Below, piece after piece: positions 6,140-30,373 of a stretch of 42,151 nucleotides of DNA. The position numbers were made by a program, and so were the translations under genes. How positions within the stretch are numbered: position 1 is the first letter of the stretch; each line of letters starts with the position of its first letter. Below the pieces are notes generated by a model that was given only the letters and a program-made list of their open reading frames with translations, searched no databases and had not been told where the DNA came from. The stretch comes from Anaerocolumna sp. (GTDB lineage Bacteria; Bacillota; Clostridia; Lachnospirales; Lachnospiraceae): positions 1 through 42,151 of the forward strand of contig JAQZAX010000002.1 of assembly GCA_029239455.1 (NCBI GenBank), read 5' to 3'.

Positions 6140-7055
6140 TTATCTGATATGTTCTGGGAATCCTACTTTCTTTTGAGCCTTACGCAAAGTCTTTGTTGCA
6201 TAATAATTGGCTTTTTCTGCATTTTCCTTGATGATGCTATCAATATATGATTTGTCTTTGGTCAAATTCTTTTACAACTTCATCCGTTGTTAAATTCATT
6301 ACTGAACTATAGATATCTATAAGATTTCGTATACCCGGTTTATCCTCACTATAAATAATCTGGTTATCCGAATCCGTAACTGCCCTCTTAAACTTGCGAA
6401 TAATTGAATCTGGGTCATCCATCAGGTAAATGCTTGCATTTAGATTCTCGTCTGATTTAGACATCTTCTTATCCGGTTCCTGCAGGCTCATAATCTTAGC
6501 TCCAACTTTACCAATGTATGGTTCCGGAATCGTAAATACGTCACCGTAGATATTATTAAATCGTTCTGCTATATCTCTTGTAATCTCCAAATGTTGTTTC
6601 TGATCGATACCAACCGGTACAACATCTGCCTGGAATAATAGAATATCAGCTGCCATTAAAACAGGATACGTAAATAAACCAGCATTAATATTATCCGCAT
6701 GCTTTGCAGATTTATCTTTAAATTGGGTCATTCTGTTTAATTCGCCCATATAAGTAAAACAGTTTAATATCCAGCTCAGTTCTGCATGGGCGGATACATG
6801 GGATTGATAATAGATACAATTCTTAGCAGGATCCAACCCGGCTGCTATATAGAGAGTAAGTAAAGCACGGGCTCTCTTTCTTAATTCTGCTGGATCTTGC
6901 CTGACTGTAATTGAATGTAGATCAACTACACTATAAAAACACTGATACTCTTCATCTAAAGTAATCCAATTCTTTAACGCACCTAAATAATTACCTATAG
7001 TAAGATTACCTGTTGCCTGCATTCCGCTAAATAATGTCTTTTTCCCATCTATCAT
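6140..7055 (-). pseudogene. trpS: tryptophanyl-tRNA synthetase with internal frameshifting deletion
   Basis: The N-terminal 265 or so residues are a normal class I tryptophanyl-tRNA synthetase: GNYLGA (the HIGH-type motif), [25 protein letters not shown], and KMSKS in [10 protein letters not shown]. The frame then stops early at 6240 after VVKEFD. In another frame the sequence resumes immediately as [20 protein letters not shown]... and ends at 6140, which is the normal C-terminus of the family. Roughly 30 codons that should join these parts are missing. The remaining length (916 nt) requires a deletion of 3n+2 bases, so the frame is broken near 6255-6266. The enzyme is normally essential. 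Either a second trpS exists, the strain carries a real lesion, or the assembly is wrong here. It follows a thioredoxin-like gene by 32 bp, with AAGGAG before the ATG and no T-box leader. Confidence 0.85.
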
Positions 7056-26951: not shown

Positions 26952-26996
26952 AAAATACCTTCACTTTCTATCAAAATTAATCTGCAAATTACTTAC

Positions 26997-27320
26997 GCTG
27001 TTACATTTCATTCACCATAGCATAAAATACATAGGCTGTTACATTTCATTCACCGTAGTATAAATCACATAGACTGTTTCACTTCATTCGCCATAGTGTA
27101 AATAACATAGGCTGTTTCATTTCATTCGCCATAATGTAAATTACATAGACTATTCATTTCATTCGCCGTAGTATAAATTACATAGACTGTTTCATTTCAA
27201 TAGCCGTAGTGTAAATTACATAGACTGTTTCACTTCATTCGCCATAGTGTAAATTAAATAGGCTGTTTCACTTCATTCGCCACAGTGTAAAATACATAGG
27301 CTGTTTCATTTCATTCTTCG
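26997..27320 (+). repeat. 38-bp tandem repeat array, about 8.5 copies
   Basis: Unit starts are 26997, 27035, 27073, 27111, 27149, 27186, 27224, 27262 and 27300 (last one partial). All units are 38 bp except the fifth, which is 37. The core is GCTGTTTCATTTCATTCGCC, and the second half (ATAGTGTAAATTACATAG) is also conserved, with A/G, C/T and a few other substitutions between copies. There are no unique spacers, so it is a minisatellite and not a CRISPR array. Confidence 0.95.
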
Positions 27321-27333
27321 AAAACAAAAATTA

Positions 27334-27505
27334 ACATAAGAGTATGCGGATAAATAGAAAAATAGAGTTTTTCGTTTGCGGTGACATTTTGTTATATATG
27401 TACGCGCAGAAACGACAATTTATTGTCGTAGCTGAGCGTACATATATAACAAAATGTAGAAGCAACTGAAAAACTCCTTTTATATATATCCGCATACTCT
27501 TATGT
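27334..27505. repeat. 172-nt nested long hairpin
   Basis: Four perfectly paired blocks stack around one centre: a 19-bp outer stem (27334-27352 with 27487-27505), 9 bp (27365-27373 with 27468-27476, GAGTTTTTC), 22 bp (27384-27405 with 27436-27457, a block starting ACATTTTGTTATATATG), and 8 bp at the tip (ACGACAAT with ATTGTCGT, 27412-27429). Short, roughly size-matched bulges separate them. The outer right arm runs into the first inverted repeat unit. Confidence 0.95.
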
Positions 27506-27616
27506 TTCAATATATACCATTGAATGAAATGAAACAGCCTATGTTTCAATACACACCATTGAATGAAATGAAACAGCCTATGTTTCAATACACCCATTGA
27601 ATGAAATGAAACAGCC
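27501..27616 (-). repeat. three inverted copies of the 38-bp unit
   Basis: Units lie at 27501-27539, 27540-27578 and 27579-27616. Read on the - strand each begins GGCTGTTTCATTTCATTC, identical to the core of the left array, then has a diverged second half (AATGGTGTGTATTGAAACAT). A partial fourth copy runs towards the lepA stop. Confidence 0.92.
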
Positions 27617-27626
27617 TATATTTCAA

Positions 27627-29435
27627 TTAATTATCGTCTAATTTAAGAACACTCATAAACGCCTTTTGCGGTATCTCAACATTACCTACCTGACGCATAC
27701 GTTTTTTACCTTCTTTTTGCTTTTCAAGAAGCTTTCTCTTTCTGGAGATATCGCCACCATAGCATTTGGCAAGTACATCTTTTCGCATAGCTTTTACTGT
27801 TTCTCTCGCAATAACCTTACTTCCGATTGCCGCCTGAATAGGAATCTCAAACAGCTGTCTTGGTATCTCATCTTTTAACTTCTCACACATTCTTCTACCA
27901 CGTTCGTAAGCGGTTTCCCCATGGACAATAAAAGATAATGCGTCAACTTCTTCTTTATTAATAAGAATATCAAGTTTCACAAGTTCTGACTGCTTATATC
28001 CTTTTAATTCATAATCAAAGGATGCATATCCTTTCGATCTGGACTTTAAGGCATCAAAGAAATCATAAATAATTTCATTTAACGGAAGTTCATATTTTAA
28101 CAAAGCTCGGGTAGCTTCCATATACTCCATTCCAAGATATACACCTCTGCGTTCCTGGCATAACGTCATAATAGAACCAACGAACTCAGTTGTAACCATG
28201 ATTTCTGCACTAACTATCGGTTCTTCCATGAATAGTATCTCACTTGGGTCCGGTAAATTGGACGGGTTGGTAATATCAAGAACCTGTCCATCTGTCTTGT
28301 GTACTTTATAAATAACACCAGGTGCTGTTGTTACGATATCCAAATTATATTCTCGTTCCAGTCTCTCCTGAATGATTTCAAGATGCAAAAGTCCTAAAAA
28401 CCCACAACGGAACCCAAAGCCTAGTGCTATGGAAGTTTCTGCTTCAAATTGTAAGGATGCATCATTTAACTGTAGTTTTTCCAGAGCATCCCTTAAATCA
28501 GGGTATTTTGCCCCATCTGCAGGATACATACCGCAGTAAACCATCGGATTAACCTTTTTATATCCTGGCAAAGCTTCTTTACATGGATTTTTAGCATTGG
28601 TAATCGTATCACCTACACGGGTATCTTTCACATTCTTAAGACTGGCTGTAATATATCCAACCATTCCAGACGTTAATTCATCACATGGAATATATTGACC
28701 AGGACCAAAAGTTCCGATTTCAACCACTTCAGCAGTTGCACCGGTTGCCATCATTTTAATCTCTGTTCCTCTGGAAACACTACCTTCCATAACACGGCAA
28801 AACACGATAACTCCTTTGTAGGAATCATATTTTGAATCAAATATTAAAGCTTTTAATGGATCATTTATATTTCCCTTTGGAGGAGATATTTTATGAACAA
28901 TCTGCTCTAGGACATCTTCAATGTTTAAACCTATTTTTGCAGAAATTAATGGAGCTTCCGACGCATCTAATCCAATCACATCTTCTATTTCTGCTTTTAC
29001 TCTCTCAGGCTCTGCACTAGGTAAGTCAATCTTATTAATAACCGGAAGGATATCAAGATCATGATCTAGTGCTAAATATACATTAGCCAAGGTTTGGGCT
29101 TCAATACCCTGGGCGGCGTCTACAACAAGAATTGCACCTTCACAGGCTGCAAGGCTTCTGGATACCTCATAATTAAAGTCTACATGTCCTGGTGTATCAA
29201 TCAGGTTAAAGATGTATTCTTGACCATCTTTTGCCTTATACACGGTACGAACTGTCTGGGCTTTTATAGTGATGCCACGTTCACGCTCTAATTCCATATT
29301 ATCTAGAACCTGAGCCTGCATCTCCCTGGTAGTTAAAAGACCGGTTTTCTCAATGATACGGTCAGCTAAGGTTGATTTGCCGTGATCTATATGCGCTATA
29401 ATACAAAAATTACGTATTTTATTCTGGTCAGTCAT
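27627..29435 (-). CDS. lepA: elongation factor 4 (LepA)
   Basis: LepA/EF4 of 602 residues is a translational GTPase acting in ribosome biogenesis or back-translocation under stress. GTPase motifs are [17 protein letters not shown] and NKIDLPSA. The C-terminal LepA-specific part (SYDYEL-type [17 protein letters not shown] and [21 protein letters not shown]) is complete. The frame extends to 29474, but AGGAGGA stands before the ATG at 29435, which gives the family N-terminus [20 protein letters not shown] good promoter lies at 29500-29528. It is followed by the inverted-repeat locus instead of directly by hemW. Confidence 0.98.
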
Positions 29436-29528: not shown

Positions 29529-29714
29529 GAAGAAGCAAGGAAGAAAACTAACAATAAATAGCAAATATTTCATTTTAAATTTAAAATTAAAAGCAATTTT
29601 TTTGTCTAATTAGTTCGATTTTTGTAACATGGCATATTTTTTTTCATATTATATTATGAAGCATCAACATTTTCATTTGTTGAGACTTTTAAAGTAACAT
29701 AAGGAGGTTTATGT

Positions 29715-30188
29715 ATGAAGCAATGTCTGTCAGTATGTGAAGCCATTAAAATAGCTGAATTCACGGGTCAGGTAGTAAGGATTACTCTACGAAGCGGAAC
29801 TGAATTTACCGGTATTGTTGAAAAGGTATGTCCTACTGCTTTTCGATTATGGATTCGGCCGGAAGAAGAAACAAATGGTGATGTGGTAAAAGCTTGGATA
29901 GCAACTCATGCCGTGGAATCCGTTGCGTTTGATGAGGAAAATATATTCCATGACAGGTTCTGCAGACTAAATAATTGCGGAAGTATTCAAGGGATAAGGG
30001 AAGCTTTAAATGCTGCCCTGCTTACAGAACAAGTTGTAATGGTTGGATTGTTCTGTCACAAAGAGCCAGTCGTTTTAGTTGGAACTATAATTAAAGTATG
30101 TCCTTGCACCTTCTGTATAGATTTAATTGGTTGCCCGGATAAGAGGGAAGAACGAATAGAAAACGTAGAATATGTTAAATTTTCATAG
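29715..30188 (+). CDS. two-repeat Sm-like small protein, function unknown
   Basis: No named family is recognised. The 157-residue protein is an internal duplication: residues about 8-72 and 93-156 align with each other. Shared landmarks are EAI/EAL, then TGQVVRITL against TEQVVMVGL, then KVCPTAFRLWI against KVCPCTFCIDL, then HAVESVAF against ENVEYVKF. Each half has the strand pattern of an Sm/LSm-like barrel (V-x-I-x-L-x-x-G...G-x-V-x-K-V...F-x-L). Ten cysteines are present, including CPCTFC. AAGGAGG stands seven bases before the ATG, and a strong terminator follows. It is divergent from lepA. An RNA-binding role is a guess from fold only. Confidence 0.75.
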   Translation: MKQCLSVCEAIKIAEFTGQVVRITLRSGTEFTGIVEKVCPTAFRLWIRPEEETNGDVVKAWIATHAVESVAFDEENIFHDRFCRLNNCGSIQGIREALNAALLTEQVVMVGLFCHKEPVVLVGTIIKVCPCTFCIDLIGCPDKREERIENVEYVKFS

Positions 30189-30286
30189 ACACACCCAGGG
30201 ATTTTCCTAAGTTTGCTATTGATACTAAAAATGAATCATAGGAAAGACGACATATGAAATTTCATTGTGTACAAAGAATAAATTAT

Positions 30287-30350
30287 AAAAATATAGACAG
30301 CGCAGATGTATTACCATAATTTATAATTCCACTGCTCTGTCTATATTTTT
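30287..30350 (+). terminator. terminator of the Sm-like gene
   Basis: AAAAATATAGACAG (30287-30300) pairs perfectly with CTGTCTATATTTTT (30337-30350), with an added GCAG/CTGC pairing inside a long loop. Confidence 0.8.
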
Positions 30351-30373
30351 ATTATATTGTTACATAGGTATAG

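Follow-up and report, generated by a model that had tools for sequence, protein, structure and literature searches.

A gene for a putative twin Sm-like barrel protein in Anaerocolumna, with candidate sigma-K-type promoter elements

The window analysed here is a stretch of 42,151 nucleotides from Anaerocolumna sp. (contig JAQZAX010000002.1; genome G000). On its forward strand, an open reading frame running from the ATG at 29715 to a stop codon ending at 30188 encodes a protein of 157 amino acids. A ribosome binding site, AAGGAGG (29701 to 29707, read from the sequence, same strand), lies 7 nt 5' of the ATG, and the longer sequence AAGGAGGT at this site is also present in G003 and G002, the two other genomes in which the gene was found as a single frame. 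The gene is flanked by lepA (TIGR01393) and by a convergent spoIIP (TIGR02867), which is followed by gpr (TIGR01441); the latter two indicate that sporulation genes are present in this genome. The G002 gene likewise has spoIIP on one side and lepA on the other. A homologue with 87% identity was found in the Anaerocolumna sp. record L004, and G000 and G003 are listed in one genus. Comparison with the G003 gene gave a dN of about 0.075 and a dS of 1.08, and comparison with G002 gave a dN of 0.39 and a dS of 2.4, the latter being near saturation. The reading frame is thus a real gene under strong purifying selection.

The initial annotation, made from the window alone, had described a stand-alone gene with an excellent ribosome site and a strong terminator. 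The first two descriptions agree with our results. As to the third, a long stem-loop is present at 30286 to 30351 (forward strand; coordinates read from the sequence), about 100 nt past the stop codon, and it is a probable terminator; the 185 nt stretch that contains it (30186-30370) had a minimum free energy of -39 and a z of -3.27, with 1 of 200 shuffles as good. A terminator scanner allowing loops of 3-8 nt, however, found none for this gene. Because the stem is located between the convergent window gene and spoIIP, it may be a terminator shared by both.

The protein consists of two related halves, residues 1-77 (29715 to 29945) and residues 88-157 (29976 to 30185). When both halves of the window protein were aligned with each other, a score of 51 was obtained, against a shuffle mean of 24 and with 1 of 2000 shuffles as good; the corresponding score in G002 was 52 (2 of 2000 shuffles). 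Comparisons across proteins gave 37 for the N-half of the window protein with the C-half of the G002 protein (26 of 2000) and 56 for the reciprocal pair, G002 N-half with window C-half (none of 2000). Where the halves are encoded separately, in G685 and G337, the pairs scored 68 and 57, respectively, and neither score was reached in 2000 shuffles. A profile comparison with hhalign, built on four N and four C halves, agreed with these results: N against C scored 34.5, whereas the C profile when reversed gave 17.1 and the best of 200 column shuffles 20.1. The internal duplication, which had been proposed from the window protein by itself, is therefore real. In the alignment of all ten domains, A14, T17, Q19, V21, L25, G33 and V70 were invariant. 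The KVCP-x-x-F core on which the two halves had originally been aligned does hold in the window protein, but it is not a motif of the family, because the core reads LCPTAC and VSNDTF in G002, LWSTAC and VCSRTF in G337, and LWDTSF and VDDDDF in G685.

The N-half was modelled by itself (79 residues, no alignment) with AlphaFold2. The best model had a pLDDT of 81.1 and a pTM of 0.67; the remaining four were poor (pLDDT 55.8 to 40.3). The best model had a helix at residues 7-17, strands at 20-25, 30-38, 42-47 and 58-63, a turn at 64-66 and a last strand at 67-72, which matches the Sm-like pattern, in which a helix precedes a barrel of five strands, the last of them preceded by a short turn. When this model was searched against the PDB with Foldseek, the best 50 matches listed were all Hfq, with a best E of 8.5e-4 and TMq values of 0.59-0.65; no more than three matches reached an E of 0.001. 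VIA-align, which is a second look at the Foldseek list, gave Z values of 8.8-10.5 for the best 50 listed, led by a small designed barrel at 10.5 and YaeO at 9.7, after which nearly all were Hfq. In a viral library the best named matches of the model were small phage proteins, either uncharacterised or annotated as RNA-binding (best E 7e-4). A prediction of the whole protein from two sequences reached a pLDDT of only 33.4 and was kept out of the fold search, and no significant match was obtained when the sequences were compared with those of solved structures (best E 0.28, 0.33, 0.2, 0.59 and 1.2). The model of the N-half strongly suggests an Sm/SH3-type small barrel, Hfq being the commonest match but not clearly separated from the others, and, taken overall, Sm-type barrels are strongly suggested. 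The Sm-like fold previously assigned to the protein is thus backed by a predicted small barrel in the N-half, while in the C-half it rests on homology to the N-half and on a relative from G685 that exceeds the cut-off of the RimP C-terminal domain.

Homologues were searched for in several partly overlapping genome samples, the query genome being among them, and matches were accepted in five genomes (G000, G003, G002, G337 and G685); the family is rare. The fused form was found in G000, G003 and G002, all of the same genus (3 of its 15 genomes, several of which are incomplete), and a two-gene form in G337, from another genus of the family, and in G685, from another family of the class. The gene was carried by 3 of 61 genomes in the sample of relatives, and by 3 of 397 in the family sample at E < 0.001 (G000, G002 and G337), where 31 further genomes (32 rows) and another 8 genomes, all with E > 0.001, were set aside. 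Two of 61 relatives of G337 matched. In the class sample 7 of 391 genomes passed an E of 0.01 and two were accepted (G000 and G685); the match in G478, which also passed 0.001, was Veg, those in G797 (also below 0.001) and G535 were judged to be chance, as they were frames opposite longer open reading frames, and those in G448 and G743 were left unread. G685 was itself the only match in its family (1 of 2) and order (1 of 58), as was G000 in the phylum sample (1 of 299). An origin from phages or plasmids was considered and discarded: the window protein had no match in either, nor was there a match in viral contigs, and the first gene of the G685 pair had one weak match in each of the former (E 0.4 and 0.9, respectively).

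The two-gene form had not been noticed in the initial annotation, and neither had the promoter elements and acidic charge described below. In G337 the two halves correspond to two open reading frames in one frame with a TAG between them, the second being preceded by the ribosome-site-like sequence GGAAAGGGTGG. In G685 the two genes, A and B, are read in different frames and separated by 20 nt; the second has its own AAGGAGG, and a terminator-like hairpin (read by eye) follows the unit. Past this hairpin, at L057:4379-4726, there is a gene for a RicR-like repressor, its score of 62.7 bits being under the cut-off of 175. By parsimony over the five genomes, the two-gene state is probably the older one, so that the window gene would have arisen in its genus by fusion of two paralogous genes for single barrels; the two frames of G337 may nevertheless be a secondary split of a fused gene. 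Since the A and B barrels are encoded either in one gene or side by side in each of the five genomes, we infer that they act together in one complex.

Neither the Pfam nor the NCBIfam cut-offs were passed by the window protein, so that by these cut-offs it belongs to no characterised family, in agreement with the unknown function given in the initial annotation. Its Pfam rows, all below cut-off, were SM-ATX (0.0071), DUF6982 (0.009) and YolD (0.058), and the N-half scored 11.7 bits with LSM (PF01423; cut-off 23.4) and 18.6 with SM-ATX (PF14438; cut-off 29.8). Rows from PHROGs (best E 0.025) and the NCBIfam rows FecI, RimP and CBO2463 were weak or far below cut-off and were set aside, and nothing relevant was found within the literature searches made. 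When the profile of the domain family was compared with those of three named families, the nearest was Veg (PF06257, Biofilm formation stimulator VEG), with a score of 33.3, a probability of 86%, 9.2 for the reversed profile and none of 200 shuffles as good (maximum 16.7). This is about as strong as the match between the N-half and the C-half, and the domain profile had retrieved a true Veg, that of G478. Veg, a family whose role is read here from its Pfam name, and for which sequence comparison found a solved structure (3fb9), consists of one domain of comparable size and shares a common core. The protein could be a small regulatory adaptor that acts by contacting other proteins, perhaps in a Veg-like way, a reading that we consider possible if rather doubtful. 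The match spans just 38 columns, no PF06257 row (cut-off 25 bits) was obtained up to an E of 10 with any of the ten domains, and G002 carries a separate, ordinary Veg in addition to its twin-barrel protein. PF06257 had no match in G000. Furthermore, Veg proteins are single-domain and mostly basic, 14 of 15 matched Veg stretches having a pI of 8.1-10.0 and one of 6.1, whereas all five homologues of the twin-barrel family are net negative, with a pI of 4.2-5.3.

The comparison with the RimP C-terminal domain gave 21.3 (none of 200 shuffles as good), whereas the C-half by itself was a weak match to RimP (probability 1.0%). Gene B of G685 exceeded the cut-off of this domain (PF17384; 27.6 against 26.3 bits), rows up to an E of 10 were obtained for 2 of the 10 domains, and none for the window protein. 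The family differs from RimP in that it has no RimP N-terminal domain, and the window genome has a RimP-type match of its own (G000:C44). The C-terminal domain of RimP is described as an Sm fold and RimP as monomeric (PMC9032327), so that the fold by itself does not imply a ring.

Such a ring was nonetheless considered, one in which A and B barrels would alternate as an Hfq-like RNA-binding assembly regulating RNA in bacteria that lack Hfq. The structural matches of the N-half described above point in this direction, and so does the HA[VI]xSV segment, invariant in the five N domains, where Hfq has KHAISTV (correspondence by eye). Likewise, a match to Hfq (PF17209) was found in none of 25 genomes of the window's family (G000-G024), several of which are incomplete, compared with 7 of the 16 other genomes of the order that were searched. 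The sequence comparisons argued the other way. The score with the Hfq profile was 15.3, hardly above chance, with 13.9 for the reversed profile and 5 of 200 shuffles as good, the N-half by itself gave a probability of 2.9%, and up to an E of 10 neither the window protein nor the domains gave a PF17209 row (cut-off 27 bits); the profile had no match in G000. The Sm2 motif of Hfq is [YF]KHA, and YKHA was present in 7 of 7 Hfq stretches compared here; in the twin-barrel family the HA is kept, but the lysine is replaced by T or I and the aromatic residue by A. Moreover, the seven Hfq stretches were all basic (pI 8.3-9.6; these values and those of Veg are from matched stretches and not whole proteins). 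The acidic pI of the family, unlike that of Hfq and most Veg, argues against RNA binding. The family, in which the two barrels share a chain or have a gene each, is also far too rare to replace Hfq, and we regard an Hfq-like ring as unlikely.

The ten cysteines of the window protein (residues 4, 8, 39, 83, 88, 114, 129, 131, 134 and 140), several of them in the sequence CPCTFC, had been taken as a sign of metal binding or redox control. The count is correct, and C4, C114 and C134 are found in four of the five homologues. None of the ten, however, is conserved in all five; C8 and C131 occur in the window protein only, there is no conserved CxxC pair, and CPCTFC becomes CPLTFC, SNDTFC, CSRTFC or DDDDFK in relatives. 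The three fused proteins have 10, 8 and 8 cysteines and the G337 pair 6 and 6, but there are only 0 and 1 in that of G685. That the protein binds metal or acts in thiol redox chemistry is consequently highly improbable, and this part of the initial annotation was not sustained.

Upstream of the gene, elements of the sigma-K type were recognised on the forward strand, with TAACA as the -35 (29625-29629), a 15-nt spacer and CATATTATAT as the -10 (29645-29654). The same elements with a 15-nt spacer, the letters of which differ, are present in G003 and G002, and with a 14-nt spacer upstream of the G685 operon; counted back from the start codon, the first promoter base was at 90, 85, 71 and 63 nt in the window, G003, G002 and G685, respectively. 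The sigma-K pattern (-35 AC, a gap of 14-16 nt and a CATA-type -10) was thus found in four loci and not in G337, where only TTACA, separated by 12 nt from a poor -10, was seen (by eye). B. subtilis sigma-K promoters are described as having a -35 of 5 nt and a -10 of 10 nt that are separated by 14-16 nt (PMC517825). The sigma-E and sigma-K promoters of C. difficile have the -10 in common, for which CATATTAT is named as a canonical mother-cell sequence, and differ in a -35 of ATA or AC (PMC3789822). TAACA has the AC and, by eye, no ATA at the sigma-E distance. The exact site occurred once in the window, both strands and gaps of 14-16 nt being considered; when the intergenic region (240 nt) was dinucleotide-shuffled 20000 times, it did not appear. 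The loose motif AC-N15-17-CATANNNTA appeared in 361 of 20000 such shuffles, and AC-CATANNNTA was found in the window seven times with a gap of 16 and six times with a gap of 17 (about 2.3 expected for each); being so common, it is weak evidence by itself.

The same bases can also be read as a sigma-70-type promoter, GTAACA-N17-TATTAT (29624-29652, forward strand), which scores 9 of 12. A sigma-A-like GTAACA-N16/17-TATTAT is present in all four of these loci, so the gene may be expressed vegetatively; the region contains 8 such sigma-A-like sites, compared with 5.9 expected. The CA kept ahead of TATTAT favours sigma-K without proving it. Sigma-K control of the window gene is suggested by these upstream sequences.

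The reading that we prefer, with a probability of about 0.35, is that of a late mother-cell twin-barrel protein, probably a structural or scaffolding unit at the spore surface (coat or exosporium). Two paralogous single-barrel genes would have been fused into one chain of two Sm-like barrels, with A and B working jointly in one complex; under the sigma-K-type elements the protein would be produced in the mother cell during late sporulation, and the barrels might then pack edge to edge at the spore surface, as Sm proteins do. The timing is proposed from the sigma-K character of the upstream elements, and the structural role because of this timing, the acidic charge and the lack of a conserved cysteine site; the coat role itself we infer from timing, charge and elimination. 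Rarity, the G337 locus without the promoter and the overlapping sigma-A reading count against this explanation, and the last of these led us to lower our estimate from 0.40. With five genomes known, the protein would be no general coat component. A Bacillus spore coat protein of the CotB type, a sigma-K-dependent protein with two tandem small-barrel-like repeats, may offer an analogy; literature searches on this likeness found nothing.

The most familiar Sm-like barrels of bacteria, those of Hfq and RimP, are both linked to RNA. If our reading were correct, an acidic, paired Sm-like protein with an apparently late sporulation promoter would represent a different, developmental use of the fold, and the two-gene and one-gene forms would provide a compact test case for the fusion of paired Sm-type proteins. 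A broader proposal, which we judge distinctly unlikely, is that of an Hfq-independent Sm-like assembly specific to sporulation, a hetero-oligomer in which two types of barrel would alternate and which would have become a single chain in one genus; where Hfq is lacking, it would form the lattice unit of a spore surface or act as an RNA matchmaker in the mother cell.

Other features were observed in the window. Between hemW and lepA a 38-bp unit is repeated in tandem about 8.7 times (26986-27316), and at 27501-27627 there are 3.3 copies of a 39-bp unit that is related to it in the opposite orientation; the two arrays flank a 66-nt near-palindrome (27354-27487, 80% complementary). On the reverse strand, at 6240-7055, an open reading frame of 271 amino acids ends in two stops. 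We presume it to be Tryptophanyl-tRNA synthetase-like, and it would be short for that enzyme; its length could reflect a frameshift or an assembly error.
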